Source of the DNA: Paracoccaceae bacterium
Lineage (GTDB): Bacteria > Pseudomonadota > Alphaproteobacteria > Rhodobacterales > Rhodobacteraceae
Direction of reading: 5' to 3'
NCBI GenBank assembly: GCA_004153385.1
Contig: SDAL01000001.1
Coordinates: 62,001-126,000, forward strand
Length of the DNA stretch: 64,000 bases
The translations under genes were made by a program, and so were the position numbers. Positions within the stretch are counted from its first letter, which is position 1. The number at the start of each line of letters is the position of its first letter. Shown here one piece after another: positions 3,542-17,339 of the stretch. The notes under the pieces were generated by a model, which saw nothing but the letters and a program-made list of their open reading frames with translations, made no database searches and was not told the origin of the DNA.

Positions 3542-3877
3542 GGGCATCCCTCGTGGCTATTCCGTTTTACACGGTTTTGTCCAGCGCTCGAAATGAACAG
3601 CCTGTCGGGGGATATCTCTCCGAAATCAGAAGGCTGGCAGAACGGGCGCGCGGCCCATCCCGTCTGTTGGAGTGACGCGGCCTATACTCCCTTTGGTGCA
3701 TACCGGCGCGGCCATCGCCTGTCTAAGCTGAGGCCTGATCGCGCCGTGTCACAACAACTGGCCCGCCATCCCCGCGCAATTTTCCGCCCGTTTTGTTGCA
3801 AAACGCGGAGCTTGAGCGGGGAGGGCAGAAGGCCCGGACAGGCGCGCGCACGAAAAACAGGGATAAGGACACCAGAT
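3542..3877. other. Intergenic region between efflux pump and urtA
   Basis: This 336-nt stretch separates the divergent MFS gene and urtA and must hold both promoters. The long open frame that runs through it into urtA has no plausible start and is not coding. The only clear structure is the 17-bp palindrome at 3789-3805. I could not pick a confident -35/-10 pair. Confidence 0.6.
3789..3805. promoter_or_regulatory. Candidate operator palindrome upstream of urtA
   Basis: CGTTTTG-TTG-CAAAACG is a perfect 7-bp inverted repeat with a 3-nt centre, ending 72 nt before the urtA start codon. Size and position suit a dimeric DNA-binding regulator. The LuxR-type response regulator at 8733-9647 is a natural candidate, but that link is inference. 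Confidence 0.4.
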
Positions 3878-5074
3878 ATGACGACTTCTACCAGATATGT
3901 GCTCGCGGCCGGTATGGCCTTTGGCTTGGGACAGGCCGCACTGGCCCAAGACGAGACCGTCAACGTGGGTGTTTTGCAATCGCTGTCGGGCACGATGGCG
4001 ATCAGCGAAGTCACCGTGAAAAACGCCGAGATCATGGCCATCGACGAGATCAACGCCGCGGGCGGTGTGATGGGCCACCAGATCAAGGCCGTGATCGAGG
4101 ATGGCGCATCCGATCCGGCGATCTTTGCACAAAAGGCCACCAAGCTGATCCAGAACGATGATGTCGTGACCGTATTCGGCGGCTGGACGTCGGCCTCGCG
4201 CAAGGCGATGCTGCCGGTGTTCGAGCGTGCCGATAACCTGTTGTGGTATCCGGTCCAGTTCGAGGGCAACGAATGCTCTGCCAATATCATGTATTCGGGC
4301 GCGCAGCCCAACCAGCAGATCCTGCCTGCCTACACATGGGCCAAGGATCAGGGCAAGGAGAGCTATTTCCTTGTGGGCTCGGATTACGTCTTTCCGCGCA
4401 CGGCCAACATGATCGTTAAAAAACATATCGACGAGGACGGTCTGAGCCTTGCAGGCGAGGAATATGTACCGCTCGGGGGGACGGATTTTTCAGCCGTGAT
4501 CGCGAAAATCCGCGCCGCACAGCCCGATATCATCTTCAACACGCTCAACGGCGATAGCAATGTGTCGTTTTTCAAACAGCTGGCCTCGGCAGGTATCAGC
4601 ATCGAAGACACACCTGTTATGAGCTTTTCCATTGGTGAACAGGAAGCGCAGGCAATGGGCGTGTCGCTGGTTGAAGGGTCCTATGCCGCATGGAACTATT
4701 TCGAAACGCTGCCCGGTGAAGCAAACGAGGCTTTCATTGCCCAGTACCGTGACGCCTACGGGGCCAATGCCGCCGTCACCGATCCGATGCTGCATGGCTA
4801 CCTGAACGTGTACGCATGGAAGGCCGCGGTCGAGGCGGCAGGGGCGTTCGATGTGGATGAAGTGCGCGCAGCAGCGGTGGATCTGGATGTGGACACGCCC
4901 ATGGGCACCGTCTCGTTCGCACCCAACCAGAGCTTGCGCCAGACGGCCTATGTGGGCGAGCTGAACGAGAGCGGCAAGTTCGATATCTTGTGGCAGTCCG
5001 AAGGTATGATCGAGCCGCAGCCCTATGATCCGCTGACCTTCCCGAACAAAAGCTGTGATCTGAGCGCGGGCTAA
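3878..5074 (+). CDS. urtA: Urea/short-chain amide ABC transporter, substrate-binding protein
   Basis: A 398-residue periplasmic protein with a signal peptide (MTTSTRYVLAAGMAFGLG, cleaved near ALAQD). The mature start ETVNVGVLQSLSGTMAISE and the downstream FGGWTSASRKAMLPVFE, WYPVQFEGNE, SGAQPNQQILPA and FLVGSDYVFPRTAN segments are hallmarks of the UrtA/FmdD branch of the branched-chain amino acid-type binding proteins, which bind urea or formamide/acetamide-like amides. The real start is the ATG at 3878 with GATAAGGAC upstream; the much longer open frame beginning at 3362 has no ribosome site or signal. It is the first gene of a five-gene operon. Urea and short-chain amides cannot be separated by eye, and no urease or amidase gene is in the window. 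Confidence 0.85.
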   Translation: MTTSTRYVLAAGMAFGLGQAALAQDETVNVGVLQSLSGTMAISEVTVKNAEIMAIDEINAAGGVMGHQIKAVIEDGASDPAIFAQKATKLIQNDDVVTVFGGWTSASRKAMLPVFERADNLLWYPVQFEGNECSANIMYSGAQPNQQILPAYTWAKDQGKESYFLVGSDYVFPRTANMIVKKHIDEDGLSLAGEEYVPLGGTDFSAVIAKIRAAQPDIIFNTLNGDSNVSFFKQLASAGISIEDTPVMSFSIGEQEAQAMGVSLVEGSYAAWNYFETLPGEANEAFIAQYRDAYGANAAVTDPMLHGYLNVYAWKAAVEAAGAFDVDEVRAAAVDLDVDTPMGTVSFAPNQSLRQTAYVGELNESGKFDILWQSEGMIEPQPYDPLTFPNKSCDLSAG

Positions 5075-5174: not shown

Positions 5175-6068
5175 ATGCTAGATGCGACCCTTCTTGCAGG
5201 GCAGGTATTCAACGGCTTCAGCGTGGCCTCGCTTTTCGTGCTCGCAGCGCTCGGGCTTGCGCTCAGTTTCGGGCTGATGCGGGTGATCAACATGGCCCAT
5301 GGCGAGATGCTGATGCTTGGCGGCTATCTGGCCTATCTGACCTATCTGGTGGTGCCCGGCCCGTTGGCGATCTTGGTGGCGATGCCGGTCGCGTTTCTGG
5401 GGGCGGCGCTTTTGGGTGCGGTGCTGGAGCTGACGGTCATCCGCAAACTTGCCGCACGCCCGCTCGATACGCTTTTGGCGACGTGGGGTGTCAGCCTGAT
5501 CTTGCAGCAGGCCGCGCGGTCGATCTTTGGCCCGATCGGGGTGGGGGTGACGGCACCTGACTGGCTGAACACAGGATTTCTGCTGGCAGGCGTCTATATC
5601 CCCTCCACGCGGCTGTTCATTCTGGCGGTGGCGGTCGTGGTGCTGGCTGTGCTGGGGCTGGTCATTGCCCGAACGCGGCTGGGGTTGCTGGTGCGTGCGG
5701 TCAACCAAGACCGGATGATGGCCGCAGCGTCTGGGATCAATGTGCGCCGTGTCGATCTGGCGGTCTTTTGTCTGGGCACAGGAATTGCGGGCCTTGCCGG
5801 GGTTGTGCTGTCGCTTCTGGGACCGGTCACACCCAGTGTGGGGCAAAGCTATATCGTGCCCGCCTTTCTGGTGGTGGTGATGGGCGGCTTGGGATCAATG
5901 GTGGGCACAACCGTGGCCGCGATCATTCTGGGCCTTGTCTCGGCCATCTCGCAAATCTTCCTTGATGTCTCGATGAGCCAGGTTCTGATGCTGCTCTCGG
6001 TCATTGTCTTCTTGCAATTCCGCCCCCAGGGCGTTGTCGCGACCCGTTCGCGCGCATTGGAGGAGTGA
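5175..6068 (+). CDS. urtB: Urea/amide ABC transporter permease (LivH-type)
   Basis: A 297-residue integral membrane protein of the LivH family with about eight hydrophobic helices. Conserved features are the GLALSFGLMRVINMAHGEMLM motif near residue 30 (broken here: LSFGLMRV and INMAHGEM), the ATWGVSLILQQ stretch, and the RAVNQDRMMAAASGINVRR loop (RAVNQD...SGINV), which contacts the ATPases. The C-terminus ends FRPQGVVATRSRALEE. Unlike many cyanobacterial and enterobacterial UrtB proteins it lacks a long periplasmic N-terminal extension. AAAGGAC precedes the ATG at 5175. The stop is 3 nt before the urtC start, so the two permeases are translated together. Confidence 0.88.
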   Translation: MLDATLLAGQVFNGFSVASLFVLAALGLALSFGLMRVINMAHGEMLMLGGYLAYLTYLVVPGPLAILVAMPVAFLGAALLGAVLELTVIRKLAARPLDTLLATWGVSLILQQAARSIFGPIGVGVTAPDWLNTGFLLAGVYIPSTRLFILAVAVVVLAVLGLVIARTRLGLLVRAVNQDRMMAAASGINVRRVDLAVFCLGTGIAGLAGVVLSLLGPVTPSVGQSYIVPAFLVVVMGGLGSMVGTTVAAIILGLVSAISQIFLDVSMSQVLMLLSVIVFLQFRPQGVVATRSRALEE

Positions 6069-6071
6069 TCC

Positions 6072-7154
6072 ATGACCGATCACCCGATATTCAAACATGG
6101 CTGGATCGTCGTGCTGGCCGTGGGGATCTGTGCACCGGCGCTTTTGTCGTCTTATGATCTCAACCTTCTGGGCCGGTTTCTGGCAATGGCCATTCTGGCC
6201 ATCGGGATCGTGCTGATCTGGGGCGAGGCTGGCATCCTGACCCTTGGCCAAGGCGTGTTCTTCGGAATGGGTGGCTATTGTATCGCGATGTATCTGAAGC
6301 TCTCCTCGCTGGAGGCGGGAGCGCTGCCCGACTTTATGGAGTGGTCGGGCGTGAGTGCGCTGCCGTGGTGGTGGGTGCCTTTCGCCAATCCGGTGCTCGC
6401 ATTGTTGGCGATTATTGTCGTGCCCGCCGTCTTTTCAGGTGTTTTCGCGTGGCTTGTATTCCGGCGCCGGATCGTGGGCGTGTATTTCGCGCTGATCACC
6501 CAAGCCGTGGCGCTCACCTTCGCCACGCTGTTGACCAGTCAGCAAAACACCACAGGCGGCTATAACGGCCTGACCGGGTTCCAGACGATTTTCGGGTTGG
6601 AGCTGGGGACAACGGATGGCAATCGTACGCTTTACTGGGTGACGCTGGCCATTCTGGCGCTGGTCTTTGCAGCCACCAGATGGCTGATCGGATCGCGCTA
6701 CGGAACAGTGCTGCGTGCCACGCGCGACGGCGAGAACAGGGTCCGCTTTCTGGGCTACAATACGACACCGTACAAAGTGGTGGCTTTTGCGCTGTCTGCG
6801 GTGTTCGCCGCCATCGGCGGGGCGTTGTTCACGCTTCATGCCGGTGTGGTCTCGCCTGCCTTTGTCGGGGTGGTGCCGTCTATCGAGATGATCGTCTGGG
6901 TGGCAGTGGGCGGACGCCACAGCCTGTGGGGCGCGATTTCGGGCGTGTTGATCGTGAATTTTGCCAAGGACATGATTTCGTCCGCGTTGCCGGAGGCATG
7001 GCTTTATGTGCTGGGGCTCGTGTTCATTCTGGTGGTGATGTTCCTGCCCAACGGCCTTGCCGGTCTGGTGGACGACCTTTGGCAGAAATACCGCACGCGG
7101 GATGGCTCAAACGATATGGCCGGCTCGACCGGCGCACTGGAGGAAAGCAAATGA
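6072..7154 (+). CDS. urtC: Urea/amide ABC transporter permease (LivM-type)
   Basis: A 360-residue LivM-like permease and the second half of the transmembrane channel. It carries ILIWGEAGILTLGQGVFFG in pieces (GEAGILTLGQG), the FRRRIVGVYFALITQA region, and NGLTGFQTIFGLEL, followed by RATRDGENRVRFLGY, the cytoplasmic coupling loop. The late GGRHSLWGAISG motif is typical of urea-type LivM proteins. The ribosome site GGAG lies 6-7 nt before the ATG at 6072. Its TGA overlaps the urtD ATG in an ATGA junction (7151-7154), showing translational coupling. Confidence 0.88.
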   Translation: MTDHPIFKHGWIVVLAVGICAPALLSSYDLNLLGRFLAMAILAIGIVLIWGEAGILTLGQGVFFGMGGYCIAMYLKLSSLEAGALPDFMEWSGVSALPWWWVPFANPVLALLAIIVVPAVFSGVFAWLVFRRRIVGVYFALITQAVALTFATLLTSQQNTTGGYNGLTGFQTIFGLELGTTDGNRTLYWVTLAILALVFAATRWLIGSRYGTVLRATRDGENRVRFLGYNTTPYKVVAFALSAVFAAIGGALFTLHAGVVSPAFVGVVPSIEMIVWVAVGGRHSLWGAISGVLIVNFAKDMISSALPEAWLYVLGLVFILVVMFLPNGLAGLVDDLWQKYRTRDGSNDMAGSTGALEESK

Positions 7155-7915
7155 CCGCAGATGCGCATCCCGCACCCTATCTGTTGAAAGTAGATGGCAT
7201 TACCGTGGATTTCGACGGTTTCAAGGCGATCGATAATTTCTCGATGACGCTGGATCGTGGTCAGTTGCGGGTGTTGATCGGGCCCAATGGCGCCGGCAAA
7301 TCCACCTTGTGTGATACGATTATCGGGCGGGTCCAGTCTGCCGCGGGCCGGGTGTCGTTCAATGATGAAGATATCACCAACCTGCCTGAATACGAGATCG
7401 TGCGTCGCGGGATCTGCCGCAAATTCCAGACCCCGGGCGTGCTGCCCAGCCTGAGCGTGCGCGACAATCTGGCCGTGGCCGCGCAAAAGGACCGCCGCTG
7501 GTGGCGGGGCTTTGGTCGGGGCGTGCGCAAGGCCGAAGCCGTGCGCGTGGACGAGATCCTCGAACAGGTGGGGTTGGCTGCGCGTGCAACCACACTGGCC
7601 GCAGATCTGGCCCATGGCGAGAAACAATGGCTGGAAATCGGCATGGTTGTGGCGACCGAGGCGGAGCTGCTTTTGCTGGATGAACCCACCGCCGGCATGG
7701 GCCCGAACGAGACATCGAAAACCGCGAAGCTGATCCATTCGCTTTTAGGGAAACACGCGGTTCTGGTGATCGACCACGATATGAGTTTTGTCGAGGAACT
7801 GGGGGCCAAGGTCACGGTGATGCATCAAGGCAAGTTCCTGAAACAGGGGTCGGTGGCGCAGGTGCGTGCCGATCCCGAGGTGGCGGCCGTGTATCTTGGT
7901 CGGGCAAAGGAGTAG
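7151..7915 (+). CDS. urtD: Urea/amide ABC transporter ATPase (LivG-type)
   Basis: A 254-residue cytoplasmic ATPase. Walker A is GPNGAGKST near residue 43. The Q-loop region reads ICRKFQTPGVLPSLSV, a UrtD-like feature (FQxPxVxxxLSV). The signature motif is the variant DLAHGEKQWLEIGM, also typical of UrtD, followed by Walker B ELLLLDEPTAGMGPNE and a switch His in VLVIDHDMSFVEEL. The start is the ATG at 7151, inside an ATGA overlap with urtC; the longer open frame beginning at 6680 is only an out-of-frame run through urtC. It pairs with UrtE to energise the permease. Confidence 0.88.
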   Translation: MTADAHPAPYLLKVDGITVDFDGFKAIDNFSMTLDRGQLRVLIGPNGAGKSTLCDTIIGRVQSAAGRVSFNDEDITNLPEYEIVRRGICRKFQTPGVLPSLSVRDNLAVAAQKDRRWWRGFGRGVRKAEAVRVDEILEQVGLAARATTLAADLAHGEKQWLEIGMVVATEAELLLLDEPTAGMGPNETSKTAKLIHSLLGKHAVLVIDHDMSFVEELGAKVTVMHQGKFLKQGSVAQVRADPEVAAVYLGRAKE

Positions 7916-7920
7916 GCACT

Positions 7921-8640
7921 ATGGAAACGCTTTTGAAAATGGAGGCAGTCACAGCTGCCTACGGCCAAAGTCAGGTATTGTGGGATATCGATCTGGACAT
8001 CCACAAAGGCGGTGCGGTTGCGCTGATCGGGCGCAACGGGGTTGGCAAGACCACGCTGTTGCGCACGATCATGGGAGTGCAGAAGGCGGCCTCGGGGGTG
8101 ATCCGGTTCAACGGGGCGGATGTGACAGCGCAAAAGCCGCACGAGCGCGCGCGCGGCGGTATCGGATTTGTGCCCCAAGGCCGGCATGTGTTTGCCCATC
8201 TTAGCGTCGAGGAAAACCTGACCACCGGCCTTTCGGCACTGGCCGGTCGTGGGCGCGGCCTGATCGGGCAGGGCGTGCCGGATCATATTTTCGATTTGTT
8301 TCCGAAACTCGCCCAGATCCGCCACCGCAAGGCCGGTGTCTTGTCGGGGGGCGAACAACAGCAACTGGCGATCGGGCGCGCGCTGGCGGGCCAGCCCAAA
8401 TTGTTGCTGCTTGACGAGCCGACCGAAGGCATCCAGCCCAATGTCGTGCAGCAGATCGAGGAGGCCCTGCGCCGCGTGCGCACCGAACTGGGCGTGACAA
8501 TCGTCATCGTAGAGCAATATCTGGATTTCGCGTGGTCTTTTGCCGATGAGTATTGCGTACTGATGCGCGGGCGTATGATCCGGCGCGGAACGACCGCACA
8601 AGACAGCGCAGCCGATGTGGCGCATCTGGTCAATGTGTGA
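7921..8640 (+). CDS. urtE: Urea/amide ABC transporter ATPase (LivF-type)
   Basis: A 239-residue ATPase with Walker A GRNGVGKTT near residue 38, the LivF/UrtE-type GIGFVPQGRHVFAHLSVEENL in pieces (FVPQGR, LSVEENL), ABC signature LSGGEQQQLAIGRAL, Walker B KLLLLDEPTEGIQPNVV and switch VEQYLDFAW. The DEPTEGIQP wording is characteristic of UrtE. It begins 5 nt after the urtD stop. It is the last gene of the operon and is followed by a strong hairpin at 8647-8690, beyond which the regulator genes run in the opposite direction. Confidence 0.88.
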   Translation: METLLKMEAVTAAYGQSQVLWDIDLDIHKGGAVALIGRNGVGKTTLLRTIMGVQKAASGVIRFNGADVTAQKPHERARGGIGFVPQGRHVFAHLSVEENLTTGLSALAGRGRGLIGQGVPDHIFDLFPKLAQIRHRKAGVLSGGEQQQLAIGRALAGQPKLLLLDEPTEGIQPNVVQQIEEALRRVRTELGVTIVIVEQYLDFAWSFADEYCVLMRGRMIRRGTTAQDSAADVAHLVNV

Positions 8641-8732: not shown

Positions 8733-9647
8733 TCAGCCGTGCTCGGCCAGCGCCTGTACGGCCATGGCCGCGGCGGTGGCGCGGTTTTCCACGCCCAGCT
8801 TGGCATAGATCTGTAGCAGGTGCTTTTTGACCGTGGCCGGACTATTGCCCAGAATATCGGCAATATCCTGATTGGATTTACCCGCAGCCAGCCAGACCAG
8901 TACCTCGGCCTCGCGCACGGTCAGGGGGAAGCGCGCGCGCAAAAGCGCCTCGCGGGCACCGGGAAGGGTTTCGGTCACGCGAAAGAGATATTCGCCCGGC
9001 CTGACGGTGGTCAGAAAATGGAATTCGCGCGTAGGCGGGCCCGAGTGCGGTGCCGACAGGGGCCGGGGGGGTGTGGCGCCATCTGAGGCCACCGCGGCCA
9101 ACAGGCTGCCCACAAGCGCATCCTCCAGCATCAGCCGCCCGCCTGTGAACTGATCTGACAAGATCTCTTCGGCGCGCGGGGTGCACCATAAAAGTTGCCC
9201 GTCGGCTGCAAGGGAAAACAGGCTGCGGCCGGTGGCATCCAGTGCCGCGCGGGCCCCCACCGCCAGCCGCGCATTGGCCAGATGCACCCTGATACGGGCG
9301 ATCATCTCGTCCAGAACAATGGGTTTGGTCACATAATCCACCCCGCCCGCGGCCAGACCTGCCACAACATGCTGGGTCTCTGTCAGGCCAGTCATGAAGA
9401 TGACGGGGATATGTTCGCGCATCGGGGTCTGCTTGATCCGGCGGGTCGTTTCGAACCCGTCAAGCCCGGGCATGCGGGCGTCCATCAAGATGACATGGGG
9501 GGCCACTTTGGCAAGCAGATCGAGCGCGGCCTGCCCGCTGGTGGCCACCAGAACCGTCATGTCCTCGCGTTCCAGCGCATCGGTCAGCATCCCGAGGGTC
9601 TGCGGGGAATCGTCCACGATCAGAACGGTGTCGCCCAGATCTGTCAT
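8733..9647 (-). CDS. Response regulator, receiver plus LuxR-type DNA-binding domain
   Basis: A 304-residue two-component regulator. Residues 7-125 form a receiver: acidic pocket VDDSP (D12-D13), phospho-acceptor Asp56 in VILMDARMPG, Thr in IFMTG and Lys in YVTKP. A middle region of about 100 residues (VGARAALDATGRSLFSLA...) looks like a linker or degenerate sensor domain. The C-terminal 60 residues are a LuxR/GerE helix-turn-helix: LTVREAEVLVWLAAGKSNQD, then IADILGNSPATVKKHL and IYAKLGV. The start ATG overlaps the kinase stop by 4 nt (ATGA, 9644-9647), so kinase and regulator are co-translated partners. Being convergent with the urt operon, it probably controls it. Confidence 0.9.
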   Translation of the reverse strand: MTDLGDTVLIVDDSPQTLGMLTDALEREDMTVLVATSGQAALDLLAKVAPHVILMDARMPGLDGFETTRRIKQTPMREHIPVIFMTGLTETQHVVAGLAAGGVDYVTKPIVLDEMIARIRVHLANARLAVGARAALDATGRSLFSLAADGQLLWCTPRAEEILSDQFTGGRLMLEDALVGSLLAAVASDGATPPRPLSAPHSGPPTREFHFLTTVRPGEYLFRVTETLPGAREALLRARFPLTVREAEVLVWLAAGKSNQDIADILGNSPATVKKHLLQIYAKLGVENRATAAAMAVQALAEHG

Positions 9648-12600
9648 GGCATGCCCTTTTCAAGGTCCGCGACAATGGCGGGCAGGTTGAATTCATCGGC
9701 CATCTGGCGCCAGCGGGCGATATCGGTGGCGGGCGCGCCTGTGCAGGCCATGGCATCGAGCGCGCGCAGAACGCCGCGGTGATGGCCGATTTCAGCGGCC
9801 TGTCGCAGGGCCGCGCGATATGTGCCGGTCTCGGTGGGTGCCTGTGGCGATGAGGCAGGGGGAGGGGCTGGCGTCTCAGGTGTGGTCTTGCACGCTTGCA
9901 AGGCGGGCAGGGCCTGTGATGCGGGCTCACGCATGTGCCCGTGGGCCGGATGGCGGTCCCAGTCCAGATGTAAAAGCGCGCCCACCTGTGCCACGAATGT
10001 GTCAAACACGAAGGGTTTGGAGACAAACGCATCATGATCTGCCCCTGTTTCGCGCCGCGCGCTGGCCTGTGCGTCCTGCGCATTGCCCGACACCATCAAG
10101 ATCGCAAGGCCGGGCCAAAGCGCGCGCAGCTTTGAGGCCAGTTGCCAGCCGTCCATGCCGGGCATCGTCACATCCAGAACCGCCAGATCGGGCGGCGCGC
10201 TGGGGGCGATGCGCAGGGCCTGCGCGCCGCTTCGCGCCGTCTGGATGGCAAAGCCCAATGGGGCAAGTATTTGCTGGCCCAACCGCAGATGATCCTCGTC
10301 ATCGTCGACCAGCAGCACCCGTCTGCGCGGTCCGTGATACCCCAAGATCGGGTCGTGTCTTGCCGGACTGGCCTGCGCGGTTGCGGCAAACAGCAGCATC
10401 TCGACCGTCATCTGGCTGCCATGTCCCACACGGCTTTGCACCGCGATGCGTCCGCCCATGATTTCCACCAGAAGTTTCGTGATCGTCAGGCCCAGACCGG
10501 TGCCGGGAACGGAATGGGCCTGACTGTCGGTGCCGCGGTCAAAGGGCTGAAAAATCCGCTCCAGATCCGCGGGCGCGATGCCGATGCCTGTATCGGCCAC
10601 TTCGATCTGCAACATGTGGTTGCGATAGCGGATCTGGAGGCTGACCTCGCCTTGGGCAGTGAATTTCACCGCGTTGGACAACAGATTGATGATCACCTGA
10701 CGCAGCCGCTTGCGGTCTGCAAAGATCTGTTGGGGCATCCAGCCTTGGCGCATGTAGCGAAAGCCAAGCCCTTTGGCTTCGGCCTGCAGGCGGAACATAT
10801 CGGCCAACTGGTCGAGCAGTTCGGGCAGCGCAATAGGATCGCGTTGCAAGACCAGTGTTCCGCCCTCGATCTGCGAGATATCCTGCAGCCCGTCGACCAG
10901 ATCGGTCAGATGTTCGGCGGAGCGCTGGATCACGCTGATCGCCTGTGCGGGATCTCTGGCATCGCGTTGCATAAGCTGGGCATAGCCATAGATCGAATTG
11001 AGCGGCGAGCGGACCTCGTGGCTCAGCCCCGTCAAAAACCGCGATTTGGCAAAATTTGCGGCCTCGGCGGTTTCGCGTGCCTTCTGGGCTGTGGCTTCGG
11101 CTTCCTCTCGCGCCGCGATCTCGCCAAACAGCTGCTCGGCCTGTCGGGCGAACTCATCCTCGACCTTGCGCCGGCTTTCATGCGCCAGCACCAGAAACCA
11201 TGTCATCACACCTGACAGGATCGATAGCACGGTGAAAATAACCCATAGCGCACGGGTGACGGCCACGGCCTGATCAACGCTGAACTGGGGATAAAGCTGG
11301 TGGGCGATGCAGGCCAGTAATCCTGCCAGTATCAACACGAACACCAAGCTCAGGCTGAGAACCTGCGCCAGACGTGTACGGGTTTGTGCCGCCAGTCCGG
11401 GCGGCAGCAATCGCTGTGCCAGCTGCGCGACCTGCTGGGACGCCCGTGCCTGGGGTTTGCACATGTCATGACACCGCCCTTCAAGCGAGCAACACAGCGA
11501 ACAGATCGCGACCCCGTAGGCAGGGCATTGGGCCATATCGGACGGATCGAACCGGTTTTCACAAATGCCGCAGGTGCACAGTCCGGACGGGTCGGGCGTG
11601 CTGGCCGAGATGCGTGCGATATAAAATCGCCCCCCTGTGGCCCATGCCAGAAGGGGCGCTGTGCAAAAAGCGACCGCCAGACCGATAACCACGCAAAACG
11701 CCTGCGCCAGATCGCCCAGAATTCCGCTGAAACACACAATCGCGCAGAGGATCGACAGGCCCATGGCCCCGCATCCCACCGGATTGATATCGTAAAGGTG
11801 GGCACGTTTGAATTCCATCACGCGCGGCGCCCATCCCAAGGGTTTCGCAATCATCAGATCGCCCGCAATCGCGCCAAGCCATCCCACAGCCAATATCGCA
11901 AACAGATCCAGAATGCTTTCGATCACGCCGAAGACGCCGAGCTCCATCAGCATCAGCGCCAAGGCCAGATTGAAGACCAGCCAGACCACACGGCCCGGGT
12001 GGTTATGGGTCAGGCGGGAGAAGAAGTTGGACCATGCCAGAGAGCCTGCATAGGCATTCGTGACGTTGATCTTGATCTGGCAAACGCACACGAAGACCCC
12101 TGTGAGCACCAGTGCTGCCGCAGGCGCGGGCACGATCTGGCCAAAGACCATGTGGTAGATTTCGGCCGGCTGGGCCGCGCGTTCGGGCGACAGGCCGGTT
12201 TGCAGCGCAAGATATCCCAGATAGGATCCCAGCGCCAGTTTGGCACCTGCGATCAACACCCATCCCGGCCCCACCCCCAGCACGGCCGCCCACCATGCGC
12301 GATCCCGCCGCGTGGGCATGAAGCGCAAATAGTCCACCTGCTCTCCGATCTGCGGAAGAAGCGACATCAGAAGCGAAAGCCCCGCCCCGATCATCAGCGG
12401 GTTGATGCCGGTGCCCTCCACCAGCCGCATGTCGCCTGCAAAGGTGGCCCAGCCTGCGATATCGCCTTGCATGACAGCGACCACCAGAAGCGGTGCCAGC
12501 TGCAATGCCAGCCACAGCGGTTGTGTCGCGCGTTGCCAGCGCGAGATCCGCCGGATGCCGAAGGCGGCAATCGGCAAAACAATCAGCGCCGATATAAGAT

Positions 12601-13051
12601 GCGCCACTCCCAGCGGTATCCCCAGCACCATTTCCAGTGCGACCGACATGATGCTGGCCTCGATCGCGAACAGGACAAAGGTGAAAGAGGCATAGACCAG
12701 CGATGTGACCGTAGAGCCGATGTAGCCAAACCCTGCCGCCCGCGTCAGCAAGTCGATATCCAGTCCGGAGCGCGCCGCGTTTATCGCGATTGGCACCGCG
12801 ATAAACGCGCCCAGCACCATCATCGCCCCGATCGCGATCAGGGTGTTGAGCGTGCCGTAATTCATCGTGAGGGTGGCACCAATCGCCTCGCATGCCAGAA
12901 AGGCCAGCGCGCCGATGGCGGTGTGGGCAACTGTGGCGGGCGACAGTCGCGCACTGCGGGCGGTAAAGCGTAGCGCGTAATCTTCCAGCGTTTCGTCTGC
13001 GGCCCATTTGTTGTATCGGCGCCGTTCCACCGCGATGCGCTGCCTGTGCAT
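9644..13051 (-). CDS. Hybrid sensor kinase with N-terminal NCS1 permease domain
   Basis: A 1135-residue protein of rare architecture. Residues 1-480 form a complete NCS1-type permease (cytosine/purine/allantoin/hydantoin class): a polar start (NKWAADETLEDYALRF), then about twelve hydrophobic helices with GALAFLACEAIGATLTMNYG, AGFGYIGSTVTS, LPQIGEQVDYLRFMP and INVTNAYAGSLAWSNFF landmarks (shown discontinuously). Residues 492-531 hold nine cysteines. Two further helices (about 563-625) precede a coiled coil. The HisKA H-box is GLSHEVRSPLNS (His678), followed by an HATPase core with N box NLLSNAVKF, G1 ADTGIGI and G2 GTGLGL. A receiver at 911-1030 has Asp960 in VLDVTMPG. The final 60 residues are helical and unassigned. 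AGGAA precedes the ATG. The likely role is a transporter-derived sensor of a nitrogen compound, signalling to the overlapping response regulator. Confidence 0.88.
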   Translation of the reverse strand: MHRQRIAVERRRYNKWAADETLEDYALRFTARSARLSPATVAHTAIGALAFLACEAIGATLTMNYGTLNTLIAIGAMMVLGAFIAVPIAINAARSGLDIDLLTRAAGFGYIGSTVTSLVYASFTFVLFAIEASIMSVALEMVLGIPLGVAHLISALIVLPIAAFGIRRISRWQRATQPLWLALQLAPLLVVAVMQGDIAGWATFAGDMRLVEGTGINPLMIGAGLSLLMSLLPQIGEQVDYLRFMPTRRDRAWWAAVLGVGPGWVLIAGAKLALGSYLGYLALQTGLSPERAAQPAEIYHMVFGQIVPAPAAALVLTGVFVCVCQIKINVTNAYAGSLAWSNFFSRLTHNHPGRVVWLVFNLALALMLMELGVFGVIESILDLFAILAVGWLGAIAGDLMIAKPLGWAPRVMEFKRAHLYDINPVGCGAMGLSILCAIVCFSGILGDLAQAFCVVIGLAVAFCTAPLLAWATGGRFYIARISASTPDPSGLCTCGICENRFDPSDMAQCPAYGVAICSLCCSLEGRCHDMCKPQARASQQVAQLAQRLLPPGLAAQTRTRLAQVLSLSLVFVLILAGLLACIAHQLYPQFSVDQAVAVTRALWVIFTVLSILSGVMTWFLVLAHESRRKVEDEFARQAEQLFGEIAAREEAEATAQKARETAEAANFAKSRFLTGLSHEVRSPLNSIYGYAQLMQRDARDPAQAISVIQRSAEHLTDLVDGLQDISQIEGGTLVLQRDPIALPELLDQLADMFRLQAEAKGLGFRYMRQGWMPQQIFADRKRLRQVIINLLSNAVKFTAQGEVSLQIRYRNHMLQIEVADTGIGIAPADLERIFQPFDRGTDSQAHSVPGTGLGLTITKLLVEIMGGRIAVQSRVGHGSQMTVEMLLFAATAQASPARHDPILGYHGPRRRVLLVDDDEDHLRLGQQILAPLGFAIQTARSGAQALRIAPSAPPDLAVLDVTMPGMDGWQLASKLRALWPGLAILMVSGNAQDAQASARRETGADHDAFVSKPFVFDTFVAQVGALLHLDWDRHPAHGHMREPASQALPALQACKTTPETPAPPPASSPQAPTETGTYRAALRQAAEIGHHRGVLRALDAMACTGAPATDIARWRQMADEFNLPAIVADLEKGMP

Positions 13052-13288: not shown

Positions 13289-14134
13289 TCAGGCATTGCG
13301 CCCGATCGCCATTTTGACCCGCACCCTGCGGTAGCCAAGCGCGATCAGGAACAGGATCGTCAGCAGCAGTACAATCGTCGGCGCAGGCGCGCTGTCGAGC
13401 CAGAAGCTGATATAGATGCCGCCCAGTCCGGCTGTGAGTGCGCTCAGCACCGCCGCCACCATCATCGCCACAAAACGCCGTGCCAGCAAAAACCCGACCG
13501 CGCCGGGGGCGATCAGAAACGCCACTGCCAGAATGATGCCCACCGACGAGAGCATCGCGACGATGGTGGCTGACAGGACCGTCAGCAGCCCGTAATGCAA
13601 CCAGCCCACCCGCAGCCCGATCATCCGCGCCTGAACAGGATCAAACGCATGGGCCAGAAGATCGCGCCATTTCAGCGCGAGCATCAGGCCAACCAGTGCA
13701 GCTATCGTGCCGGTAAGCCACAGATCGGGCGCCCCCACACCCAGCATGTTGCCAAACAGGATATGGTCAAGATGCACGGCACTGTCCACTTGGGTATAAA
13801 GCACCACCCCGAGGCCGAACATGCCAGAGAAGACGACCCCCATCACGGTGTCTTGCTTGATGCGGGAATGGTCCTTGATCAGCCCTGTGGCGAGCGCGCA
13901 AAACAAGCCCGCCAGAAACGCCCCCACAATCAACGGTATGCCGGCGATATAGGCCAGCACCACCCCTGGCAGCACCGCGTGGCTTGTGGCGTCGCCCATC
14001 AGTGCCCATCCCTTGAGCACCAGAAAACATGACAGCATGGCCGCCGCGGGCGCAATCAGCGCGGTGATCAGGAACGCGTTTTGCATGAACGGGAATTGCA
14101 GCGGGAATACCAGTGTATCAATCAATGACATCAT
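13289..14134 (-). CDS. sitD: Manganese ABC transporter permease
   Basis: A 281-residue membrane protein of the ABC-3 (zinc/manganese/iron) permease family with about eight helices. It shares with SitC the family segments FLVLKGWALMGDATSHAVLPGVV (as LKGWALMGDA and SHAVLPG), LKWRDLLAHAFDPVQAR and IALAFLIAPGAVGFLL-like text. The MM start at 14134-14129 overlaps the sitC TGA, so the longer open frame reaching 14434 is not used. It is the last gene of sitABCD and, with SitC, forms the membrane channel energised by SitB. Confidence 0.88.
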   Translation of the reverse strand: MMSLIDTLVFPLQFPFMQNAFLITALIAPAAAMLSCFLVLKGWALMGDATSHAVLPGVVLAYIAGIPLIVGAFLAGLFCALATGLIKDHSRIKQDTVMGVVFSGMFGLGVVLYTQVDSAVHLDHILFGNMLGVGAPDLWLTGTIAALVGLMLALKWRDLLAHAFDPVQARMIGLRVGWLHYGLLTVLSATIVAMLSSVGIILAVAFLIAPGAVGFLLARRFVAMMVAAVLSALTAGLGGIYISFWLDSAPAPTIVLLLTILFLIALGYRRVRVKMAIGRNA

Positions 14135-14988
14135 CCGGCCTCCGTCAGGGCGCGCCGCGCGCGGCGGCGTGCGGCCAGAACGCCATGCTTGGGGGCGAAG
14201 GTGAAGGCCAAGAGGAAAATGGACGTTTGCAGGCAGACGATGATCCCCCCTGTCGCCCCGTCCAGAAAATAGCTGACATAGGCCCCCAGCGCAGAGGTGC
14301 TCGCCCCGATGATGACCGATAGCACAATCAGACGTGGAAAACGGTCGGTCAGCAGATAGGCCGTGGCACCGGGTGTCACCACAAGGGCGATCACCAGAAA
14401 TGCGCCGACCGTCTGCATCGCAGCCACGGTGCACGCAGCCAGAAGCGTGAAAAACACCACCCTGAGCGCGCCCGGATGCAGGCCAATGGTGCGGGCATGG
14501 GCCTCGTCAAAGAATACGGCCAGAAGATCGCGCCATTTCAGCAGCAAAACCAGAAGCGACACCCCGCCTATCAGTGCAAGCTGGATGGTATCTGACGGTG
14601 TGATGGCCAGAATGTTGCCCATGATGATCGTCTGGACCGACACGGCCATAGGATTGAGCGAGACCATAAACAAACCCAATCCGAAAAACGAAGTGAAGAT
14701 CAGCCCGATGACCGTGTCTTCCTTCAATCCCGAACTTTGTCGCAAAAACAGCATGGCCGCTGCTGCGAGGCCGCCGGACAGAAAGGCCCCCATCGCGAAA
14801 GGCAGCCCCAGCATATACGCGCCCGCGACGCCCGGAACAATGGAATGGCTGAGCGCATCACCGATCAACGACCAGCCTTTGAGCATCAGATAGGCCGAGA
14901 GAAATGCACAGACCCCACCCACCAAGGCAGAGACCCAGATCGCGTTGGTCATGTACCCGTAGGAGAAGGGCTCGAGTAGAATGCTCAT
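14131..14988 (-). CDS. sitC: Manganese ABC transporter permease
   Basis: A 285-residue ABC-3 family permease: YLMLKGWSLIGDALSHSIVPG near residue 35 (conserved core LKGWSLIGDALSHS), GLKEDTVIGLIFTSFFGLGL, LLKWRDLLAVFFDEAHARTIGL, and ALVVTPGATAYLLTDRFPRL. SitC and SitD are clearly paralogous and make the heterodimeric channel. The start overlaps the sitB stop by 4 nt (14985-14988), and the stop overlaps the double ATG of sitD. The family transports Mn(II) and sometimes Fe(II); Mn is favoured because of the adjacent mur gene. Confidence 0.9.
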   Translation of the reverse strand: MSILLEPFSYGYMTNAIWVSALVGGVCAFLSAYLMLKGWSLIGDALSHSIVPGVAGAYMLGLPFAMGAFLSGGLAAAAMLFLRQSSGLKEDTVIGLIFTSFFGLGLFMVSLNPMAVSVQTIIMGNILAITPSDTIQLALIGGVSLLVLLLKWRDLLAVFFDEAHARTIGLHPGALRVVFFTLLAACTVAAMQTVGAFLVIALVVTPGATAYLLTDRFPRLIVLSVIIGASTSALGAYVSYFLDGATGGIIVCLQTSIFLLAFTFAPKHGVLAARRRARRALTEAG

Positions 14989-15836
14989 TTGCGCGGCTCC
15001 ACCGTGCGGGCGCGATCATCATAGATTACAAGCGGGCGCTCGTCGTCGCTGAAGACCTCCAGTTTGCGCGGATCGGCATCATCATGCAGTCGGGCGCCAT
15101 CCATCAGGAAGTGGCGCAATACACCGCCAAAGGCCACACGCAGGTTGTCGGCGGTAAACACTTCCTTTGTGGGGCCAAACGCCAGAACCGTCCCGTTGAC
15201 CAACACGACCCTGTCGCAAAATTCAGGCACCGATCCCAGATTATGAGTGGCCACCAGCATCACGCGCCCTTCTTTGCGCAGGTCGTGCAACAGCGCGATG
15301 ATCTGTTCTTCGGTTTTGACATCGACGCCGGTAAACGGCTCGTCCAGCAAGATGACTTGGGCATCTTGTGCCAGTGCACGCGCCAGAAAGACCCGCTTTT
15401 TCTGCCCGCCCGACAACTCCCCTATCTGGCGGTGGCGAAACTGGGACATATTCACCCGTTCCAGCGCGCGGTCCACGGCCTGACGATCAGCGGGGCGGGC
15501 ACGGCGCATAAAGCCCATATGCCCGTAGCGACCCATCATGACCACATCCTCGACCAGCACCGGAAAGCTCCAGTCCACTTCCTCGGCCTGCGGCACATAG
15601 GCCACCGCCTGTTGCCGCATCGCGGTGCGCACCGGCATACCCAGAATTTCAACCCGACCACGCGACAGGGGCACAAAGCCCATAAGCGCCTTGAACAGGG
15701 TGGATTTTCCGGCACCATTCACCCCCACAAGCGCGGTGATCGTGCCTTTGGGGGTGGTGAAGCTTGCATCACGAAGGGCTGTCATCCCGTTGCGGTAGGT
15801 GACGGTCAGCCCTTCGGCGCGAATGCCGTCTGTCAT
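14985..15836 (-). CDS. sitB: Manganese ABC transporter ATPase
   Basis: A 283-residue ATPase. Walker A is GVNGAGKST near residue 40. AYVPQAEEVDWSFPVLVEDV (in pieces YVPQAEEVDW and FPVLVEDV) is the Q-loop wording of metal-type ABC ATPases. The signature is LSGGQKKRVFLARAL, Walker B is VILLDEPFTGVDVKTE and the switch is VATHNLGSV. A 30-residue C-terminal tail (LMDGARLHDDADPRKLEVFSDDE, discontinuous) is common in roseobacter SitB. Its ATG overlaps the sitA TGA (15833-15836). Confidence 0.9.
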   Translation of the reverse strand: MTDGIRAEGLTVTYRNGMTALRDASFTTPKGTITALVGVNGAGKSTLFKALMGFVPLSRGRVEILGMPVRTAMRQQAVAYVPQAEEVDWSFPVLVEDVVMMGRYGHMGFMRRARPADRQAVDRALERVNMSQFRHRQIGELSGGQKKRVFLARALAQDAQVILLDEPFTGVDVKTEEQIIALLHDLRKEGRVMLVATHNLGSVPEFCDRVVLVNGTVLAFGPTKEVFTADNLRVAFGGVLRHFLMDGARLHDDADPRKLEVFSDDERPLVIYDDRARTVEPRK

Positions 15837-16786
15837 TGCGATAATCCGTCCACGATGGTTTGCGATGTGACGCGCAGCAGATCTATGTAGCTGGGTACCG
15901 GCCCATCGGGTCCGCTGAGACTGTCGACATAAAGCACACCGCCATAGGCCGCGCCGGTTTCGCGTGCAACCTGACGGGCGGGTTTGTCAGATACGGTGGA
16001 TTCAGAGAATACGGCAGGAATGTCATGCGTTCTGACCGCATCGATGACTTTGCGCACCTGCTGGGGCGTGCCTTGGGCATCGGCATTGATTGGCCAGAGA
16101 TAAACCTCTGTCAGGTTGAAATCGCGCGCCAGATAGGAAAACGCCCCTTCCGAGGTCACAAGCCAGCGGCGGTCCTCGGGCAGGGCACGGGCGGCCGCGC
16201 GCAGAGGGCCGATCACCTCCATGATCTGCGCCTTGTAGGTCTCTGCATTCTCGCGGTAACGGTGGGCGTTGTCGGGGTCGATGCCGATCATGGCATCGCG
16301 GATATTGTCCACATAGATCATGGCCGATGAGGGGGCCATCCAGCCATGCGGGTTGGGCGTGCCGTCGTATTCGCCCCCCGAGATCGACATCGGCTCCACC
16401 CCGTCGGACACGGTTACTGCGGGCACATCGGCCAGAGTGCGGAAGAACTGCTCGAACCAGCGTTCCAGATTGAGGCCGTTCCACAACACCAGATCTGCGC
16501 CTTGTGCGCCCACCAGATCGCGCGGGGTCGGCTGATAGCCGTGGATTTCCGCGCCCGGTTTCGTGATCGAGACCACGTCTATGTCGGGGCCTGCGACCTG
16601 CTTGGCCATATCCGCAATCACGGTGAATGTCGTGACGACCTTCAGCCGGTCCTGGTCGGCCATCGCCGCAGGGGCCGATAGCCACACCCCCAACCCCGTT
16701 AAAATCCCCAGCATCCCGCGCCTGCGCAGGCCGCCTGCGCGCCGCTGGTCTAGGAAAAGGTGGTTACTTCCATGTCGTGTTTGCAT
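15833..16786 (-). CDS. sitA: Manganese ABC transporter substrate-binding protein
   Basis: A 317-residue metal-binding receptor of the SitA/ZnuA (A-1) cluster. An N-terminal segment around GMLGILTGLGVWLSAPAAMA is the signal peptide. The mature part has LKVVTTFTVIADMAKQVAG, the metal ligand His in GAEIHGYQPTPRDL, His in PNPHGWMAPSSA, then VFSESTVSDKPARQ (Glu ligand) and GVLYVDSLS (Asp ligand). The His-His-Glu-Asp set is typical of Mn/Fe-type receptors, and the His-rich loop of Zn receptors is absent. The start at 16786 follows GGAGGG; the upstream frame reaching 16924 overlaps the promoter and is rejected. It is first in a tightly overlapping operon and divergent from mur. Confidence 0.9.
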   Translation of the reverse strand: MQTRHGSNHLFLDQRRAGGLRRRGMLGILTGLGVWLSAPAAMADQDRLKVVTTFTVIADMAKQVAGPDIDVVSITKPGAEIHGYQPTPRDLVGAQGADLVLWNGLNLERWFEQFFRTLADVPAVTVSDGVEPMSISGGEYDGTPNPHGWMAPSSAMIYVDNIRDAMIGIDPDNAHRYRENAETYKAQIMEVIGPLRAAARALPEDRRWLVTSEGAFSYLARDFNLTEVYLWPINADAQGTPQQVRKVIDAVRTHDIPAVFSESTVSDKPARQVARETGAAYGGVLYVDSLSGPDGPVPSYIDLLRVTSQTIVDGLSQ

Positions 16787-16819
16787 TCCCCGTGTCCCTC
16801 CGTTCAAAATACATGCAAA

Positions 16820-16834
16820 TGCAAATGAGTTGCA
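16820..16834. promoter_or_regulatory. Mur-box-like operator between sitA and mur
   Basis: TGCAA-ATGAG-TTGCA is a perfect 5-bp inverted repeat, 34-48 nt upstream of the sitA start. It resembles the manganese-responsive sites recognised by alphaproteobacterial Mur. A second weaker copy, AGCAA-N7-TTGCA, lies at 16860-16876 nearer mur. The likely role is Mn-dependent repression of sitABCD; binding is not shown. Confidence 0.65.
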
Positions 16835-16907
16835 ACTGTCAAGCCTGATGAAAATTTCCAGCAATAAATTCTTGCATTTTCCGGAAGGGCGGGGGCAAAA
16901 CCGCACA

Positions 16908-17339
16908 ATGGACAGAACGACCAACAGCCTTGAAAGTTTAATGCAGGCGCTGCGGGCTGCGGGTATTCGTGTGACCCGCCAGCGCGCGGCCTTGCTTGCG
17001 GTTCTGGCAGAGGCCGGAGATCATCCCGATGCGCCGGAGTTGCACAGACGCGCCGAGGAAGCGGCCCCTGGTATTTCGCTTTCCACCGTGTACCGCACGC
17101 TGACCACGCTCGAGACGCAGGGCGTGATCCAGCGCCACCAGTTCGAAGGCGCGCCTGCGCGGTTCGAACCCGCCGAGACGGATCATCATGACCATATGAT
17201 TGATGTAGATACGGGCGAGGTGGTGGAGTTCTGTTCCGAGCGGATCGAGAAACTGCAGGCCGCGATTGCCGCCGAGATGGGCTATGATATCGTACACCAC
17301 CGCATGGAATTGTATGTCCGAAAGCGCACGCAGGAGTGA
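16908..17339 (+). CDS. mur: Fur-family manganese uptake regulator
   Basis: A 143-residue Fur-superfamily repressor. The winged-helix N-terminus reads RVTRQRAALLAVLAEAGDHPDAPELHRRA, with recognition helix region ISLSTVYRTLTTLETQGVI (both shown as continuous family landmarks in parts). The dimerisation domain has metal ligands in ETDHHDHMIDVDTGEVVEFC. The CxxC of classical Fur/Zur is absent and replaced by IDVDTG, as in alphaproteobacterial Mur. Its position directly opposite sitABCD with a Mur-box-like site supports Mn-responsive control. The ATG at 16908 is chosen from homology to the usual Fur length; the in-frame extension to 16563 would overlap sitA. Confidence 0.88.
   Translation: MDRTTNSLESLMQALRAAGIRVTRQRAALLAVLAEAGDHPDAPELHRRAEEAAPGISLSTVYRTLTTLETQGVIQRHQFEGAPARFEPAETDHHDHMIDVDTGEVVEFCSERIEKLQAAIAAEMGYDIVHHRMELYVRKRTQE

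Follow-up and report, generated by a model that had tools for sequence, protein, structure and literature searches.

Organization of the locus

The kinase gene described here lies in a 64,000-nucleotide stretch of Paracoccaceae bacterium DNA, referred to as the window, and the features of the locus are collected in Table 1. The kinase and response regulator genes on the minus strand converge on the plus-strand urtABCDE operon, and all five UrtABCDE subunits exceeded the curated cut-offs of NCBIfam. The urease operon of the same genome is located ~1.1 Mb from the locus, and the 20 kb around that operon contained no urt genes. To the right of the kinase (window 13289-17339), what looks by eye like an ABC importer operon for a metal (two permeases, an ATPase, and a binding protein) was seen together with a divergent Fur-family regulator.

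Table 1. Genes, protein domains, and proposed regulatory site at the locus (window coordinates)
Feature	Position	Strand	Basis
Proposed operator ATACTCCCTTTGGTGCAT, diverged form of ATACGTCA-NN-TGACGTAT	3684..3701	+	Thioclava comparison; no binding data
urtA, urea-binding protein, urease-associated clade	3878..5074	+	TIGR03407, 514 bits > 492.75; tree
urtB	5175..6068	+	TIGR03409 above cut-off
urtC	6072..7154	+	TIGR03408 above cut-off
urtD	7151..7915	+	TIGR03411 above cut-off
urtE	7921..8640	+	TIGR03410 above cut-off
Response regulator, REC and LuxR-type (GerE) DNA-binding domain	8733..9647	-	Pfam scan; overlaps kinase 3' end
NCS1-hybrid histidine kinase, 1135 aa	9644..13051	-	Intact ORF, ATG start; full length kept in homologues
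NCS1/LeuT-fold transporter-derived sensor domain, residues 1-480	11612..13051	-	hhalign, AlphaFold2 model, 38% identity to urease-operon permease
Cysteine module, residues 487-535, 8 invariant Cys	11447..11593	-	Homologue alignment
Two further helices leading to kinase, residues 560-622	11186..11374	-	Secondary structure from predicted model
HisKA, residues 668-731, His678	10859..11050	-	Pfam scan, homologue alignment
HATPase_c, residues 779-885	10397..10717	-	Pfam scan
Receiver (REC), residues 912-1022, Asp960	9986..10318	-	Pfam scan, homologue alignment

An earlier note on this DNA had described a single 1135-residue kinase with HisKA His678, an HATPase core, and receiver Asp960, and the intact open reading frame, domain matches, and invariant residues bear this out. 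H678, D960, and K1012 were invariant in an alignment of nine full-length homologues, and the criteria for a hybrid histidine kinase, a HisKA histidine with an HATPase and a receiver aspartate, are satisfied. The two extra helices that had been described were recovered in the predicted secondary structure, and the cysteine module is real: Cys 494, 497, 509, 517, 520, 521, 527, and 531 were invariant in 52/52 kinase homologues. The claimed overlap with a LuxR-type regulator and convergence on urtABCDE were likewise confirmed from the reading-frame coordinates and domains. The regulator satisfies the criteria for a NarL/FixJ-type response regulator (REC with its Asp, plus a GerE helix-turn-helix), and its D12, D13, D56, and K108 were invariant in the loci of the nine full-length homologues. 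The C-terminal helical tail of the kinase is missing from some homologues of ~1030 aa and, thus, is not essential to the design. The tail was considered as an Hpt domain, but this was ruled out since it has no conserved His among full-length homologues.

Origin of the membrane half

Residues 1-480 had been assigned to an NCS1-type transporter. This was upheld by profile comparison, predicted fold, and a bridging permease, but not by a direct Pfam match. PF02133 did not match the window protein or eight homologues even at E<=10, and a sequence profile search of the PDB with the kinase gave no match. When a profile of the 52 homologues was compared with 11 NCS1 proteins from related genomes using hhalign, the match was co-linear over 357 columns (95.8%, E 8.1e-9). 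The controls gave 1.3% for the sensor domain against SLC5 (25 SSF proteins) and 2.4% for SLC5 against NCS1. An SLC5 origin of the membrane half was ruled out by the first of these values and by the absence of PF00474 from the Pfam matches. The Pfam scan of the kinase also gave no STAC match; the presence of a STAC model in the library is unconfirmed.

An AlphaFold2 model of the sensor domain (pLDDT 81, pTM 0.85) was built from an alignment that excluded rows from plasmid records. The model matched CodB with a Z of 28.1 (397/400 residues) and Mhp1 with a Z of 21.7-25.1, and the other LeuT-fold families all had Z<=21.1. The matches to Mhp1 and CodB spanned about 400-430 residues. The sensor domain is 27-38% identical to its stand-alone relatives. 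One of these, L198, is the bridging permease: it is 29% identical to the window domain (E 9e-28) and passes PF02133 with 36.4 bits, above the cut-off of 23.5. As judged by the profile comparison and the predicted model, the membrane half is an NCS1-derived domain and not an ordinary PF02133 member, a wording chosen because of the missing direct match. The window genome also contains a separate NCS1-type PF02133 match (L102, G000 C2:561506-561775) in a 235-aa frame, which is possibly a fragment.

The cysteine module is probably metal-binding, although this is an inference. It could be the main input of the kinase, responding to metal or redox state, with the transporter part acting only as an anchor or as a contact reporter of flux through the Urt importer. 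The invariance of the eight cysteines in all 52 homologues would fit this explanation, and sensing via a partner transporter is known from BceAB-BceS (PMC11109136). However, half of the module cysteines are kept in a stand-alone permease from Acinetobacter, suggesting a structural role, and the transporter core is conserved at least as much as the cysteine module, which is more than an anchor needs. We consider the cysteines very unlikely as the main input and regard the NCS1-derived domain as the likely sensor.

Distribution and gene neighborhood

The kinase was present in 9/248 sampled genomes of the window's family, 26/385 of its class, and 57/398 of its phylum. Across Proteobacteria, the protein is conserved over its full extent, and its frames are nearly always about 1120-1250 aa. 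The regulator followed directly after the kinase in all 86 testable loci (90 loci in all). Among 75 well-flanked loci, urtA was near the kinase in 69, from Alpha- and Gammaproteobacteria, and six had no urtA nearby. It was also near the kinase in a Betaproteobacterium. The earlier note had held that the lack of a conserved neighborhood between this fusion and urt genes would refute its hypothesis, and that refutation failed. The kinase and urtA were divergent in 65 of the 69 loci, convergent in two, and codirectional in two; the convergent pair, Thioclava and Methylovirgula, has the same layout as the window. Formamidase was found in 27 loci of the neighborhood survey and urease in 25, and xanthine dehydrogenase-family genes were near two kinase loci.

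About 340 Klebsiella plasmid records matched the sensor domain. A locus on one Klebsiella pneumoniae plasmid (L249 9944-14153, NZ_CP073628.1) contains the kinase, a regulator that is intact but unannotated, urtABCDE, formamidase, and the palindrome described below, and it is apparently the CG307 locus known as UTS. NCS1 kinases of another kind, ~880-900 aa long and without a receiver, were seen in L199, L200 (5666-8302), and L201 (6574-9207). The genes flanking these short kinases encode a response regulator and a REC-HisKA-HATPase protein. No palindrome is present there, and formamidase is near the short kinase in L199 and L200.

A conserved palindrome upstream of urtA

A count of 7-mers in 22 divergent urtA/kinase intervals found TACGTCA in 18 of them, compared to 10 for the best chance word. 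This 7-mer is half of a new palindrome, ATACGTCA-NN-TGACGTAT. Forty-one exact palindromes were present in 89 loci (1.8 Mb), where about 0.02 would be expected under uniform base composition. Thirty-eight of these preceded urtA by about 90-240 bp, including cases with urtA kilobases from the kinase, three were upstream of a separate fmdA, and none were elsewhere in the 89 loci. In 58 whole genomes, nearly all with the kinase, the palindrome gave 31 strand hits compared to 2 for the reversed pattern, and 26 of its 28 distinct places were on the kinase contig within about 12 kb. Loci from Paracoccus, Burkholderia, and Klebsiella that were not part of the discovery set each had one strong palindrome, between urtA and the kinase. 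The palindrome was absent from the loci of stand-alone permeases and from the short-kinase loci, which have a different regulator, and many urease-clade members had no recognizable copy. Of the two places in the whole genomes that were not near the kinase, one (L251, G312 C1:1181728) is ~65 bp upstream of ureA, which suggests that the regulon can include urease.

The canonical palindrome is absent from the window, where a diverged form, ATACTCCCTTTGGTGCAT, was found 176 bp before the urtA start. It keeps the 8-2-8 layout and matches the canonical palindrome at 12/18 letters. Two Thioclava loci share this site at 18/18 and 17/18 letters, amid otherwise unalignable upstream DNA, and the site is the sole match in the 3.77 Mb genome of the window at <=3 mismatches. 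The window form of the operator rests on these three sequences only. The window and Thioclava regulators have the recognition helix ATVKKHLLQ, compared to the usual RTVNKHLEQ, and in Bradyrhizobium the helix is RTVDKHLEQ and the site is ATACGCAAGATTGCGTAT. In several groups, the form of the operator pairs with that of the recognition helix. L010 and L035 are exceptions; there, the recognition helix of the regulator is unusual and yet the canonical palindrome is present. Another repeat, CGTTTTG-TTG-CAAAACG at 3789-3805, was considered as the operator and was unsupported in the comparison with Thioclava. A sigma-70 scan upstream of urtA found nothing. There are no binding or expression data, but the conserved palindrome before urtA adds support to a reading in which the kinase controls the importer.

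The ligand inferred from gene context

The stand-alone relatives of the sensor domain (L236 6944-8551; L250 8013-9689; L198 7949-9439; L233 7001-8494; L234 6998-8461) are annotated as hypothetical protein or as cytosine or allantoin permease, and they adjoin urease, amidase, or nitrilase-type genes. The nearest relative, with 38% identity to the window domain, opens a complete Acinetobacter urease operon, and the second nearest, with 36% identity, is an Arthrobacter permease whose gene immediately precedes that of an aliphatic amidase. In a tree of permeases and kinases, these two permeases branch together as sisters to the whole set of kinases (union 100/100, kinases 96/96); the deep branches of this tree, where the classical NCS1 rows fall, are long and should not be relied on. 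A farther relative is beside a carbon-nitrogen hydrolase, an AmiC-like amide-binding protein, and an ANTAR protein, and others are beside an amidase, or hydantoinase or oxoprolinase-type genes. The stretches KINVTNAYAGS and QIGEQVDYLRF are common to the kinases and the stand-alone permeases. The stand-alone relatives are, thus far, candidate urea/amide permeases.

The urease or formamidase context of the loci tracks the kinase tree, with 3 changes compared to a mean of 17.9 and a minimum of 11 in 300 shuffles. The same context splits the UrtA tree completely, and the window UrtA, which is 83-84% identical to Thioclava UrtA, falls on the urease side. A formamidase-linked Urt cluster in Bradyrhizobium probably carries amides and not urea (PMC3098086). 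The earlier note had proposed a purine-breakdown product or an amide as the ligand. Since the stand-alone relatives occur with urease, amidase, and hydantoinase genes, an amide is favored over a purine-breakdown product. The context of the nearest permeases and the position of UrtA on the urease side favor urea for the window. The most likely ligand would be urea in the window and short amides in formamidase-linked members, not purines, although this is inferred from gene context and there are no ligand data.

The best-matching NCS1 structures carry cytosine (CodB) and hydantoins (Mhp1), and one stand-alone relative adjoins hydantoinase genes. This could mean that the NCS1 domain senses hydantoin, allantoin, cytosine, or uracil and that urtABCDE is induced for scavenging purine and pyrimidine nitrogen. 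We find this improbable, with the two closest stand-alone relatives occurring with urease and aliphatic amidase. In addition, the genes that recur by the kinase in the locus tables examined are urease and formamidase, not allantoinase or cytosine deaminase.

With urea or a short amide as the preferred ligand, another possibility is that the kinase is a bifunctional transceptor that also imports it, in the manner of CbrA, which transports histidine (PMC7096432; PMC13022988). The closeness of the sensor core to stand-alone permeases, at 38% for the one from the urease operon, is compatible with import, but transport is only inferred. Glu55 in the first core helix is invariant in 52/52 kinases, whereas the two closest stand-alone permeases have Phe at this position and Asp one position earlier. 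Also, Ks-Amt5 lost transport on turning into a sensor (PMC5764959), and a dedicated ABC importer already adjoins the kinase. Import by the kinase is therefore possible but doubtful.

More generally, the balance tips slightly toward a widespread and undescribed group of NCS1-derived transceptor kinases whose direct ligand is urea or a short amide and whose sisters are stand-alone NCS1-like urea/amide permeases. If true, there are urea/amide carriers within the NCS1 family, and one of them gave rise to the sensor. Since a living stand-alone sister permease is available, the step from carrier to receptor could be studied directly.

Proposed mechanism and comparison with known systems

We think it likely that the kinase and regulator form a transporter-derived sensory system dedicated to urea uptake, which induces urtABCDE via the palindrome; the ligand, phosphorylation, and DNA binding are inferred. 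Urea in the window, or a short amide in formamidase-linked members, would occupy the central site of the NCS1 domain. The resulting conformational change would be transmitted to HisKA through the cysteine module and both helices and alter autophosphorylation of His678. Phosphate would then reach the regulator, with receiver Asp960 as a modulator or relay; the path is unclear because the tail does not provide a conserved Hpt. A regulator dimer may bind the palindrome (window 3684-3701) and induce urtABCDE. Both urea and formamide are important sources of nitrogen, and the control of urtABCDE is usually ascribed to global nitrogen regulation. The proposal names a sensor, a regulator, and a DNA site that can be tested and are spread across Proteobacteria, also on plasmids of Rhizobium, Burkholderia, and Klebsiella.

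No NCS1-kinase fusion and no substrate-specific regulator of this kind for urtABCDE was found in the open-access literature, subscription papers being outside the scope, and we claim the system as new within those limits. A hybrid kinase without a name, next to urt together with a LuxR regulator, is mentioned in one paper on a genome (PMC13296017). The UTS of the Klebsiella CG307 plasmid (PMC13060141) appears to have the same arrangement of kinase, regulator, urtABCDE, and formamidase, with the palindrome, but is of the formamidase type, unlike the window. The paper describes the transporter, and the terms "histidine kinase," "two-component," and "sensor" are absent from its main text.

AmiC/AmiR also provides amide-responsive control of amide use, and one relative of the sensor domain adjoins an AmiC-like and an ANTAR protein. 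However, that system pairs a soluble binding protein (AmiC) with an antiterminator (AmiR), compared to a membrane kinase and a DNA-binding regulator in the window. Mhp1 and CodB are the best fold matches, with a co-linear profile match, but the sensor domain is below the PF02133 threshold, is fused to a kinase, and has urea or an amide, not a nucleobase or hydantoin, as its expected ligand. GrtK, the ammonia sensor of B. glumae, was ruled out as a comparator by its PilS-like membrane domain.

Transporter-kinase fusions are known for SLC5 (CbrA, CrbS, and RpuS) and for Amt (Ks-Amt5). The comparison with CbrA made in the earlier note holds for the working principle but not for the transporter family, as no SLC5 similarity was found. 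Like the window kinase, CbrA, CrbS, and RpuS have a LeuT-fold transporter-like N-terminal domain fused to a histidine kinase and a co-encoded regulator, and they sense the nutrient whose use they control. The window kinase differs in having NCS1 instead of SLC5, a cysteine module and two helices at the position that STAC occupies in those proteins, and urtABCDE as its proposed output. Ks-Amt5, an ammonium sensor kinase, is similar in that the transporter of a nitrogen source was turned into a kinase sensor (PMC5764959). It has the Amt fold, is a trimer, and its regulator is unknown, whereas the window system has the NCS1 fold and a hybrid kinase, and its regulator and proposed target site are identified. 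NCS1 would be the third transporter family turned kinase sensor, after SLC5 and Amt.
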